From an uncultured Chitinophagales bacterium (GTDB lineage Bacteria; Bacteroidota; Bacteroidia; Chitinophagales; UBA2359), in contig CALFBW010000112.1 in NCBI GenBank assembly GCA_937951415.1, forward strand, positions 1-64,000: 64,000 nt of DNA. Reading direction: 5' to 3'. Shown here one piece after another: positions 17,146 through 22,742 of the stretch. Under the pieces are notes generated by a model. That model was not told the origin of the DNA and did not search any database. It saw nothing but the letters and a program-made list of their open reading frames with translations. The position numbers were made by a program, and so were the translations under genes. Numbering within the stretch: the first letter of the stretch is position 1; every line of letters starts with the position of its first letter.

Positions 17146-17360
17146 GCCTCTTCAATCTCATAGAAAACCTTCATTGATACACTGTTCTTTTTCTATCCAA
17201 TACTTAATACACCTAGCTCCAACAGATTTTTTTCTGTTTTTGAAGAAAATTTTATTTTTTCTCTACTTTCTTCACATTTCACTCAATTTCAATATCATAC
17301 GAAAGCGACATTGACTTAAATCTGTATTTTTATTATATAAAAAGACTTGAATGATAAGTG

Positions 17361-17377
17361 TTGGCACAGAAATTGAT
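17361..17377 (+). promoter_or_regulatory. Sigma-54-type -24/-12 promoter, copy 1
   Basis: Reads TGGCACA-GAAA-TTGAT from 17362, preceded by one more T. The consensus is TGGCACG-N4-TTGCW. The -24 element is perfect and the spacing is exact. The -12 element has GA where GC is usual. The predicted start of transcription is about 17388. Confidence 0.6.
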
Positions 17378-17387
17378 GCTTTATTGT

Positions 17388-17452
17388 CAGAAGTTATTTT
17401 CATTTAAGTATTCAAGAAAACCTCCGTTGCATGCTGGCTCGGAGGTTTTTTT
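17388..17452 (+). ncRNA. Candidate sigma-54-dependent small RNA 1 (about 65 nt)
   Basis: Between the -24/-12 promoter and an intrinsic terminator lies about 65 nt with no start codon leading to an open frame of useful length. The 3' half is the stem AAAACCTCCG/CGGAGGTTTT with a 13-nt loop and a poly-T end. The 5' half (17388-17416) looks unstructured and could pair with a target. Ends are inferred from promoter and terminator positions only. Confidence 0.5.
17417..17452 (+). terminator. Intrinsic terminator of small RNA 1
   Basis: AAAACCTCCG (17417-17426) pairs with CGGAGGTTTT (17440-17449), a 10-bp stem with a loop including GCATGC, and the T run continues to 17452. Confidence 0.85.
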
Positions 17453-17501
17453 ATGCCTAAAAATCACATTTCTCTTTCTTATATATTCTTTTTTATCAAA
17501 G

Positions 17502-17518
17502 TTGGCACAGCCTTTGAA
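17502..17518 (+). promoter_or_regulatory. Sigma-54-type -24/-12 promoter, copy 2
   Basis: Reads TGGCACA-GCCT-TTGAA from 17503, preceded by GT as in copy 1. It has the same perfect -24 element, the same 4-nt spacer length and the same GA in place of GC at -12. The predicted start of transcription is about 17529. Confidence 0.6.
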
Positions 17519-17528
17519 CTACCCTTAA

Positions 17529-17598
17529 TCGAGTAGTTGTTTTTTTCCATAGTTAGGCCATTACCCTGGTAAGAAGAAGTCTTACCAGGGTATTTTGG
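17529..17598 (+). ncRNA. Candidate sigma-54-dependent small RNA 2 (about 70 nt)
   Basis: About 70 nt from the predicted start to the end of a perfect 13-bp terminator hairpin. The 5' part contains a T-rich single-stranded tract (17538-17547) and no open reading frame of note. Apart from the promoter and the general plan it shares little sequence with small RNA 1. Boundaries are inferred. Confidence 0.5.
17562..17596 (+). terminator. Intrinsic terminator of small RNA 2
   Basis: TACCCTGGTAAGA (17562-17574) pairs perfectly with TCTTACCAGGGTA (17580-17592) around a 5-nt loop, followed by TTTT. Confidence 0.85.
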
Positions 17599-17788
17599 TT
17601 ATAAAGGTTTCCCAAGGCTAATCGTGCCTAAATCTCCAGATTGTGTTAAAAGCCTTCCCGCCTTTTTTTTTCACTATTTTTTCCACTTCATTTGCAGGCT
17701 AATAATACTTTGAGTCGTCTTTCGAGCGTCTCTATGTAGCAACTCCCCGTTTAAAGATTAGAGATTTAGAGAGACTAGTACAGAAGAG

Positions 17789-20702: not shown

Positions 20703-22742
20703 ATGAAGCCACCAATTGCACCAATAGTTCCTCACAAACTTACAACGCACGATCATACCCGCATAGATAACTATTATTGGTTGCGCGGAAAGGAAGAAAA
20801 ACAGGTACTAGATTATCTAAAGGCAGAAAACGATTTTACGTCATTTATTACCAAAGACAACAAAAAAGCAGAAGAGCATTTGTACAAAGAAATGCTGGGC
20901 AGAATAAAAGAGACCGACCTTTCGGTTCCAGAAAAAGATGGTGATTACTACTATTATTCTCGAACGGAAGAAGGCAAAAGTTACTCCATTCACTGTCGGA
21001 AAAAAGGCAGCCTTTCTGGTAAAGAAGAAATCATTTTAGATGAAAACGACTTGGCTAAAGGAAAGGAATTCTTCTCCTTACATGAGTTCGAGATCAGCCC
21101 CGATGACCGCTATTTAGCTTATTCGACAGACACGGATGGATCGGAAAAGCACGACATTTTCATCAAGGATTTGAGCAACAATACCATCATTGACAACAGC
21201 ATTAAGCAAGCTGCGGGAGATGTTGTTTGGGCAAATGACAATAAAACCATCTTCTACAATCAATTAGACGAAACAATGCGCCCCTTTCAATTGTGGCGCC
21301 ATGTAATTGGCAGCACGAATGATGATGACCAACTGGTTTTCGAAGAAAAGGATCAAGCTTATTTTCTTGCTCCGACAAAAACAAAGAGCGAAGAGTTTCT
21401 CCTGATTTACCTGCACAGTAAAATAACGACAGAAGTTCATTACCTCGATGCCAATAATCCTAAAGGAGAATTTCAACTTTTTGCCGAGCGAAGAAATGGA
21501 GTAGAATATTCACTAGCGCATCATGAAGACAAATTCTACATTCTTTGTGATGAGAATGCGATCAATTTTAAACTAATGGAATGTCCAGTCAATAAAACGG
21601 ACTGGCAACATTGGACAGCAACGGTTCCTTACAATGAAGAAGTCAAACTCAGTGGACTGGATGCTTTTAAAGATCACCTTGTCATTTATGGCAGAAAAGA
21701 GGGTTTGAAGAGTATTCACATTTATCACTATGCAAGCAAAAGTCTAAAACAATTACGTTTCCCACAAGCCATTTACACATATTGGGAAAGTGATAATCCT
21801 GAGTTTAACACTACCCTTGTTCGGTTCACCTATTCTTCGATGTGCACACCTCGAAGAGTGGTTGATTACGATTTAGAAAAGGAAACTTTTACCATTAAAA
21901 AAGAATACGAAGTCCTAGGAGGTTTTGATCGAAGCAACTATCAAGAGGAGCGCGTTTTTGCAAGGGCCGATGACGGAACTTCCATCCCAATTTCGATCTT
22001 ATCAAAAAAGGGTTTAAAGAAGGATGGCAATAATCCCTGTCTCCTTTACGCATATGGTTCGTATGGAAGTCCAAGTGATCCTTATTTTTCATCTACCATT
22101 TACAGTTTAGTCGACCGCGGATTCGTTTATGCGATTGCGCACATTAGAGGCGGGGGAGAAATGGGAAGGAATTGGTATGAAAACGGAAAATTTCTACATA
22201 AAAAAAACACCTTTACGGATTTCATAAATTGCGCAGAGCATCTCTGTTCGATCGCTTACACAAAAGCTGAAAAATTAGTAGGAAGAGGCGGAAGCGCTGG
22301 TGGCTTACTAATGGGAGCAGTGGCGAATATGGCACCCAAACAATTCCATCTAATTTGTGCACATGTTCCATTTGTAGATGCTTTAACAACAATGCTAGAT
22401 GAAAGCATTCCTTTGACGGTGATAGAATACGACGAGTGGGGCAACCCTAATGAGAAGAAATTCTATGACTATATGCTTTCCTATTCACCTTACGATAATG
22501 TGGAAGCTAAGGAGTATCCGAACATTCTAATTACAGCTGGATTAAATGATCCACGCGTTCAATATTGGGAACCCGCAAAATGGTGCGCAAAATTACGCGC
22601 CACTAAAACAGACCAAAACACACTCATTCTCAAAACCAATATGGGGGCCGGCCACCAAGGGCAGTCAGGTCGTTATGGCTATTTAAAAGAACAAGCTTTC
22701 GAATATGCTCATATTTTGAAAACTTTATCTATTCCATTCTAA
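20703..22742 (+). CDS. ptrB: Prolyl oligopeptidase family serine peptidase (oligopeptidase B-like)
   Basis: A 679-residue S9A peptidase. The N-terminal beta-propeller (about 60-400) opens with HDHTRIDNYYWLRG, the standard family start. The catalytic alpha/beta-hydrolase domain has the nucleophile motif GRGGSAGGLLMGAVA, the acid in AGLNDPRVQYWEPAKW and the histidine in GAGHQGQSGRYG. LLYAYGSYG and AIAHIRGGGEMGRNWYENGK match oligopeptidase B, which cleaves after basic residues, more than classical prolyl oligopeptidase. There is no signal peptide, so it is cytosolic. It is followed 21 bp later by the L-2-hydroxyglutarate oxidase gene and probably shares its transcript. Confidence 0.93.
   Translation: MKPPIAPIVPHKLTTHDHTRIDNYYWLRGKEEKQVLDYLKAENDFTSFITKDNKKAEEHLYKEMLGRIKETDLSVPEKDGDYYYYSRTEEGKSYSIHCRKKGSLSGKEEIILDENDLAKGKEFFSLHEFEISPDDRYLAYSTDTDGSEKHDIFIKDLSNNTIIDNSIKQAAGDVVWANDNKTIFYNQLDETMRPFQLWRHVIGSTNDDDQLVFEEKDQAYFLAPTKTKSEEFLLIYLHSKITTEVHYLDANNPKGEFQLFAERRNGVEYSLAHHEDKFYILCDENAINFKLMECPVNKTDWQHWTATVPYNEEVKLSGLDAFKDHLVIYGRKEGLKSIHIYHYASKSLKQLRFPQAIYTYWESDNPEFNTTLVRFTYSSMCTPRRVVDYDLEKETFTIKKEYEVLGGFDRSNYQEERVFARADDGTSIPISILSKKGLKKDGNNPCLLYAYGSYGSPSDPYFSSTIYSLVDRGFVYAIAHIRGGGEMGRNWYENGKFLHKKNTFTDFINCAEHLCSIAYTKAEKLVGRGGSAGGLLMGAVANMAPKQFHLICAHVPFVDALTTMLDESIPLTVIEYDEWGNPNEKKFYDYMLSYSPYDNVEAKEYPNILITAGLNDPRVQYWEPAKWCAKLRATKTDQNTLILKTNMGAGHQGQSGRYGYLKEQAFEYAHILKTLSIPF

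Follow-up and report, generated by a model that had tools for sequence, protein, structure and literature searches.

The window analysed here is a 64,000-nucleotide stretch from an uncultured Chitinophagales bacterium, whose metagenome-assembled genome (MAG) is 86% complete and spans 3.48 Mb. Between positions 17361 and 17598 it contains two consecutive units, each made up of a sigma-54-type promoter, a predicted small RNA (sRNA) and an intrinsic terminator:

17361..17376, + strand: promoter 1, sigma-54-type, TTGGCACAGAAATTGA, with the -24 GG and -12 G (motif scan)
17388..17452, + strand: small RNA 1 (type A), predicted, about 65 nt; start placed from its distance to the -12 element, end from the T7 tract
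17390..17408, + strand: 5′ seed of RNA 1, GAAGTTATTTTCATTTAAG, aligned with GAAGTTGTTTTTCATAATTAG; its reverse complement, CTTAAATGAAAATAACTTC, is a start-codon-like site
17417..17452, + strand: terminator 1, intrinsic, 10-bp stem followed by T7 (folding)
17502..17517, + strand: promoter 2, sigma-54-type, TTGGCACAGCCTTTGA (motif scan and alignment of related units)
17529..17598, + strand: small RNA 2 (type B), predicted, about 68-70 nt; start set by distance from the -12 element
17530..17556, + strand: 5′ seed of RNA 2, CGAGTAGTTGTTTTTTTCCATAGTTAG, reverse complement CTAACTATGGAAAAAAACAACTACTCG; 31-nt match in L033 and identical core in G003, G012 and G017
17562..17598, + strand: terminator 2, intrinsic, perfect 13-bp stem with a short T4GGTT tail (sequence reading)

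The initial annotation had reported TGGCACA-N4-TTGA(T/A) twice, 141 bp apart, and both copies are indeed present: on reading the window, TTGGCACA-N4-TTGA begins at 17361 and again at 17502, and the motif scan places TGGCACAGAAATTGA at 17362-17376 and TGGCACAGCCTTTGA at 17503-17517, 141 bp downstream on the same + strand. Hairpin 1 (17417-17449) consists of a 10-bp stem and a 13-nt loop with a possible 2-bp inner stem and runs directly into the T7 tract, while hairpin 2 (17562-17592) is a perfect 13-bp stem. Both stems bear out the earlier description of textbook terminators, although terminator 2 is not quite one because its tail is short. Folding z-scores were -4.1 for RNA 1 and -5.1 for RNA 2 (-3.4 and -3.3, respectively, in a second computation). 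In the open reading frame check of the window, neither unit is overlapped by a + strand frame of more than 56 aa, and a conserved reading frame is absent from both, in line with the original view that neither encodes a protein. We infer that both RNAs are transcribed.

Probable sigma-54 promoters and their predicted regulon

With one mismatch allowed, the promoter motif occurs twice in the window against 1.34 copies expected, which is chance level, and we therefore built the case from the whole genome and from relatives. The exact pattern TGGCAC[AG]N4TTG[AC] occurs seven times in the 3.48 Mb genome: twice at the pair, and once each ahead of dnaK, htpG, the thymidine kinase gene (TK), yqeY and a hydrolase gene. 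Predicted starts are intergenic at all seven sites, with intergenic DNA making up 14.4% of the 0.94 Mb examined (chance 0.144^7, about 1e-6), and by our own arithmetic the expectation of finding two of the seven within 141 bp on one strand is about 1e-3. Because all seven exact sites lie outside genes and ahead of genes such as these, both window motifs are, judging from sequence, very probably real sigma-54 promoters.

The pair carries the -24 GG, the -12 G(C) and the fixed spacing of the TGGCACR-N4-TTGCW consensus, and GG and TTG are invariant across 16 aligned related units. The -12 C is frequently replaced by A or G, and the prevalence of GA or GG rather than GC in most units counts against a sigma-54 assignment; the dnaK and htpG promoters share the same unusual TTGA at -12 with the pair. 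No TAnnTTTG housekeeping box was found at the right distance in the window pair when the sequence was read. The presence of rpoN, which the initial annotation had named as a check, was confirmed: the genome encodes one copy, together with two genuine enhancer-binding proteins, of which one has a receiver-AAA-HTH architecture (response-regulator type) and the other is receiver-less and encoded beside lptE.

Slightly relaxed motif sites precede a lon-like gene and genes for a peptidoglycan-binding-domain protein and surface-type proteins, the lon-like and surface-protein assignments having been made by reading translations. In Flavobacterium psychrophilum, mapped sigma-54 (SM4) promoters drive GroESL, Lon, DnaK, GrpE/DnaJ, gliding genes and the putative regulatory RNA Rfp36 (PMC9723704), and the predicted sigma-54 regulon of the present genome matches this one in function. 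A search upstream of 12 promoters returned no activator-binding dyad common to them. A TGTCA-N3-TGGCA dyad does lie upstream of the htpG and dnaK sigma-54 promoters (L092 ~3414 and L097 ~2372, own genome), where it is a candidate activator site, and it is absent from the sRNA pair. The pair would presumably answer to an activator and its activating signal.

Conservation of the tandem pair

A BLAST search with 17301-17640 against 60 relatives recovered 31 nt of unit 2 at 94% identity in another genus, and reading of that locus (L033) revealed a full tandem pair, in the order promoter, core, terminator, promoter, core, terminator. A second BLAST match (L034) was AT-rich, lay in an unrelated context and was rejected on reading. 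A covariance model was built from four units, the window pair and the L033 pair, and E-values of sequences used for model building were not counted as evidence. Outside this training set, the model returned tandem pairs in G012 (E 3.5e-11 and 2.9e-9) and G003 (2.3e-8 and 1.1e-7), whereas G009 and G014 each yielded one unit. Three other MAGs of the family, representing two other genera, thus have the tandem pair in the window's order, and two more have a single unit; the spacing of tandem promoters and units also matches in the three other genomes. A search of related genomes for the paired promoter-terminator block, as proposed initially, accordingly succeeded.

All three pairs of the relatives have the window's order, with type A (GAAGTTGTTTTTCATAATTAG) ahead of type B (GAGTAGTTGTTTTTTCCATAGTTAG). 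The type A core GAAGTTGTTTTTCATAATTAG is found in G003, G012 and G017, aligned with the RNA 1 seed, and the type B core is identical across the same three genomes. The two RNAs had been thought to differ apart from their promoters; they are instead diverged versions of one 5′ core, which becomes clearly visible only through the relatives. Conservation also marks the transcript boundary: the conserved block sets in at the predicted RNA start, about 12 nt after the GA, where a start had been expected. Three genomes of family f59 (G136, G208, G239) have 33 identical nucleotides from the RNA start, whereas the promoter-to-start spacer is not identical. Together with the presence of rpoN and the conservation of the tandem pair, this boundary supports the initial proposal of two sigma-54-driven, terminator-ended small-RNA genes. 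That the pair represents real, conserved sigma-54-driven tandem sRNA genes is, in our assessment, highly probable.

Predicted RNAs are 58-74 nt long in all units except the Bacteroidales copies (88-90 nt), and all are on average more stable than shuffled sequences (z -2.4 to -6.1). Terminator sequence varies freely among genera, and the hairpin is retained. The f59 terminator stem contains two compensatory pairs, a weak signal with three sequences, as 36 of 500 shuffles equalled it. A consensus fold of the mixed alignment yielded mostly promoter artefacts and was set aside.

Beyond these relatives, scanning named genomes for the exact pattern brought in two more MAGs, one from Cryomorphaceae and one, with two copies, from Bacteroidales; that pattern demanded the promoter, so these matches are not independent promoter evidence. 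Model searches also recovered units that keep this layout but have variant cores, in three genomes of family f59 and six of family f18. A model search of 392 phylum genomes under strict filters returned only the window's own genome, indicating a group that is either patchily distributed or diverged beyond the reach of the model. Within that genome, the only further copy of the core at one mismatch lies on C136 and has no nearby hairpin; a reversed-pattern control was equally frequent.

Several other arrangements were observed along the way. At five of six f18 loci (L206-L210), the sigma-54 unit is preceded, ~150-200 bp upstream, by an sRNA-like unit that has a housekeeping-type (TAnnTTTG-like) promoter, a terminator of its own and the same seed (AGTTTTGGTTATTAAATTG), so that one seed stands under two sigma factors. 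In another family, a perfect consensus sigma-54 promoter, TTGGCACAGAAATTGC, precedes a terminator-ended unit of 58 nt whose 5′ core is different (L041:1501-1585; G062:C1). At L055:1495-1665 (G019:C48), just upstream of an apparent REP-associated (Y1-type) transposase, three sigma-54-like promoters are arrayed head to tail, with a recurring CATCACTTCAGTCCAATTATTTT stretch. Finally, apparent 3′ UTRs also contain a GTTTTTTCATAGTTA-like core followed by a terminator (L071 in G333, L068 in G003 and L051 in G017), the L071 copy following a ribosomal-protein-like gene; these copies are possibly 3′-end-derived FopS-like RNAs.

Similarity to FopS and predicted seed pairing

FopS of Bacteroides is a family of paralogous, start-codon-masking sRNAs of 65-70 nt with a single-stranded 5′ seed and a terminator; its R1′ consensus is GTGTTTTTCATAGTATTAGATTTAAGGTTAACAAA, with the 5′ part GTGTTTTTCATAGTATTAG (PMC11697453). 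The conserved sequence at the predicted 5′ end of the units resembles this seed. Where FopS has its R1 seed GTGTTTTTCATAG at the RNA start, the relatives share the core GTTTTTTCATAGTTAG, RNA 2 has GTTTTTTTCCATAGTTAG and RNA 1 has GTTATTTTCATTTAAG; the 5′ part of the sigma-54 units in G009, G014, the Cryomorphaceae and the Bacteroidales contains GTTTTTTCATAGTTAG or GTTTTTCATAGTTAG. Seed similarity to FopS, like the promoters, conservation, tandem arrangement and terminators, is computed here.

When six loci were scanned with cmscan against 4227 Rfam families, four of the five matches at E<=1 were to FopS (RF04319), three of them exactly on sigma-54 units. FopS was the best Rfam match on the Cryomorphaceae and Bacteroidales units, with scores (36.7 and 33.5 bits at L080, 29.5 bits at L078) below the Rfam gathering cut-off of 56 bits; a positive control, the phage BX-TP2 copy, scored 78.9 bits. 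Neither the window pair nor the related sigma-54 units reached this cut-off: the FopS model had no match in the window region at E<=5 or in the window's own genome at E<=1, and no Rfam family reached its gathering threshold in the window. Weak Rfam matches in the window (rli38, ohsC and others) were rejected as chance. Separately, sub-threshold FopS-model matches of 44.1 and 42 bits were seen at L107 (G034) and L108 (G004), in genomes of the same order, without sigma-54 promoters, and FopS-like RNAs therefore probably reach beyond Bacteroidaceae.

The seeds are complementary to AUGAAAA-type starts, their start-codon-like reverse complements being CTAATTATGAAAAACAAC in relatives, CTTAAATGAAAATAAC for RNA 1 and CTAACTATGGAAAAAAACAAC for RNA 2. 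In the window's genome, the RNA 1 seed favours translation starts over coding DNA (3 of 120 shuffled seeds were as good), as do the G012 type A seed (8/120) and the FopS seed (4/120), while the type B seed has no translation-start preference there (45/120). A duplex-energy ranking of targets among ~730 genes, in 27% of the genome, gave top candidates that were individually not significant; because of this, and because start codons are uncertain, we claim no target. Base-pairing targets of the pair would be expected from the seeds, and the one RRM protein encoded in the genome, RRM being the domain type of RbpB, may bind the RNAs.

Alternative explanations

The competing account that survives best, which we nonetheless consider unlikely, is that these are sigma-54-driven sRNAs in which the conserved 5′ core, rich in U, serves as a binding site for protein (an RRM sponge or anchor) and not as an antisense seed. 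In its favour are the U-rich, mostly unpaired nature of the core, the binding of RbpB to the 5′ portion of FopS RNAs (PMC11697453), the RRM protein of the genome and the lack of a start-site preference in type B. Against it, translation starts are preferred by the type A and FopS seeds, and repression of susC by FopS was shown to act through pairing (PMC11697453).

The units could also be leader or attenuator elements, in which sigma-54 transcription passes regulated terminators into the neighbouring gene. The next gene is co-directional in the window and several relatives, but the gene concerned varies by genus (lytic transglycosylase, thiL, maf, serA) and is oppositely oriented at the Cryomorphaceae and L206 loci, terminator 2 is 190 bp from the transglycosylase gene, and the terminator stems are strong, all of which makes this account improbable. 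The lytic transglycosylase that the initial annotation had singled out as a neighbour is not conserved there: thiL adjoins the pair or unit in three genomes, and maf, serA or other genes in further relatives. Because neighbouring genes vary, we regard the units as free-standing genes. An oligopeptidase-like gene directly adjoins the G012 pair (L082) and a prolyl oligopeptidase gene lies ~3 kb from the window pair (20703-22742), possibly a trace of shared gene order; a Flavo-1 RNA (RF01705, 51.5 bits) is found at L038:1855-1939 (G003), a few hundred bp from the G003 sRNA pair.

Chance promoter-like matches combined with unrelated 3′-end hairpins of flanking genes are very improbable: the one-mismatch motif is at chance level in the window and intergenic hairpins are common, but 7/7 genomic sites are intergenic, and three further genomes from two other genera keep the tandem pair with matching order and spacing, which refutes chance in practice. 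Least probable of all are peptides encoded by short frames on one strand or the other (such as MEKNNYS.., antisense to RNA 2): the reverse complement of the core does contain an ATG and a short frame, but T-run length varies among relatives (GTTTTTTTCC in the window, GTTTTTTCC elsewhere), which shifts the frame.

A model for the pair

Collectively, we favour the reading, with a probability of about 0.7, that the locus encodes tandem trans-acting FopS-like sRNAs that mask translation starts and are co-expressed with the sigma-54 chaperone and surface regulon. Two tandem genes, each transcribed independently, would produce trans-acting sRNAs of a FopS-like group, ~65 and 70 nt in length. Sigma-54 RNA polymerase, opened by an enhancer-binding protein, would initiate each RNA at the edge of the conserved seed, leaving the 5′ seed largely unpaired, and the intrinsic terminator would end each RNA. 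Bacteroidota largely lack Shine-Dalgarno sequences; here the seed would pair with A-rich AUGAAAA-type translation starts of target mRNAs and thereby block ribosome binding, with the RRM protein perhaps assisting seed-target pairing or blocking. Taken separately, FopS-like action at translation starts is probable.

The pair may constitute the repressive arm of a sigma-54 protein-quality and envelope stress response, the most likely role because the same sigma-54 signal would drive dnaK, htpG, the lon-like gene and surface-protein genes; we consider this plausible, at even odds or somewhat less. Broader still, and tentative, is the idea that the Bacteroidota sigma-54 stress regulon, whose recognised members are chaperones, proteases and surface proteins, also has a FopS-like repressive arm. 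Promoter swapping would then have rewired one family of start-codon-masking RNAs throughout the phylum, the seed type being controlled by the housekeeping sigma factor in some lineages, by sigma-54 in others, or by the two in adjacent units (L206-L210).

To our knowledge, very little has been described of small-RNA regulation in Bacteroidota other than Bacteroides. This compact conserved pair would link the phylum's sigma-54 heat-shock and surface regulon to FopS-type translation-start control, and it offers ready seed sequences and recognisable promoters. It also suggests that FopS-like RNAs are older and more widespread than Bacteroidaceae.

Comparison with known systems

Among Proteobacteria, Qrr and GlmY/GlmZ are sRNAs under sigma-54 that form small paralogous sets linked to Hfq or RapZ; they share the sigma factor with the window pair, but are unrelated in sequence, longer and part of another regulon. 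MicA and RybB, sigma-E-dependent sRNAs of E. coli, serve as the repressive arm of a stress sigma factor. The logic proposed here is alike, but sigma factor, chaperone and sequences differ, making this an analogy only.

FopS stands closer. Both it and the window pair combine a length of 65-70 nt, an intrinsic terminator and several copies with a seed near the RNA 5′ end, which in the pair is predicted to be single-stranded and resembles the FopS GTGTTTTTCATAGTATTAG; start-codon masking, proposed for the pair, has been shown for FopS (PMC11697453). They differ in that FopS has sigma-ABfr (TAnnTTTG) promoters, in whose place the window pair has the sigma-54 motif (TAnnTTTG is present in some family relatives, L056 and L062), that the distal R1′ part (TTTAAGGTTAAC) is missing from the pair, and that only two tandem copies were found in the window's genome. 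As the architecture is shared and the seed similar in type while the promoter differs and scores stay below the family cut-off, we call the RNAs FopS-like. GibS of Bacteroides has the R1 seed in common with FopS and pairs at translation starts, but it is 145 nt long, with a PM2 promoter and two seeds; both GibS and FopS block translation starts experimentally (PMC7366714, PMC11697453). For Rfp36, a putative sRNA from the same phylum, the start has been mapped and a sigma-54 (SM4) promoter predicted, and it shares its regulon with the chaperones also seen here (PMC9723704). The likeness lies in promoter and regulon; Rfp36 was not reported as a pair, nor with a mechanism. The initial annotation named no described equivalent pair in this phylum; precedents in the phylum are FopS (PMC11697453), for seed type and architecture, and the sigma-54 (SM4) sRNA Rfp36 (PMC9723704). 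A sigma-54 sRNA and FopS were thus each known, and a conserved sigma-54-driven pair joining both appears to be new.
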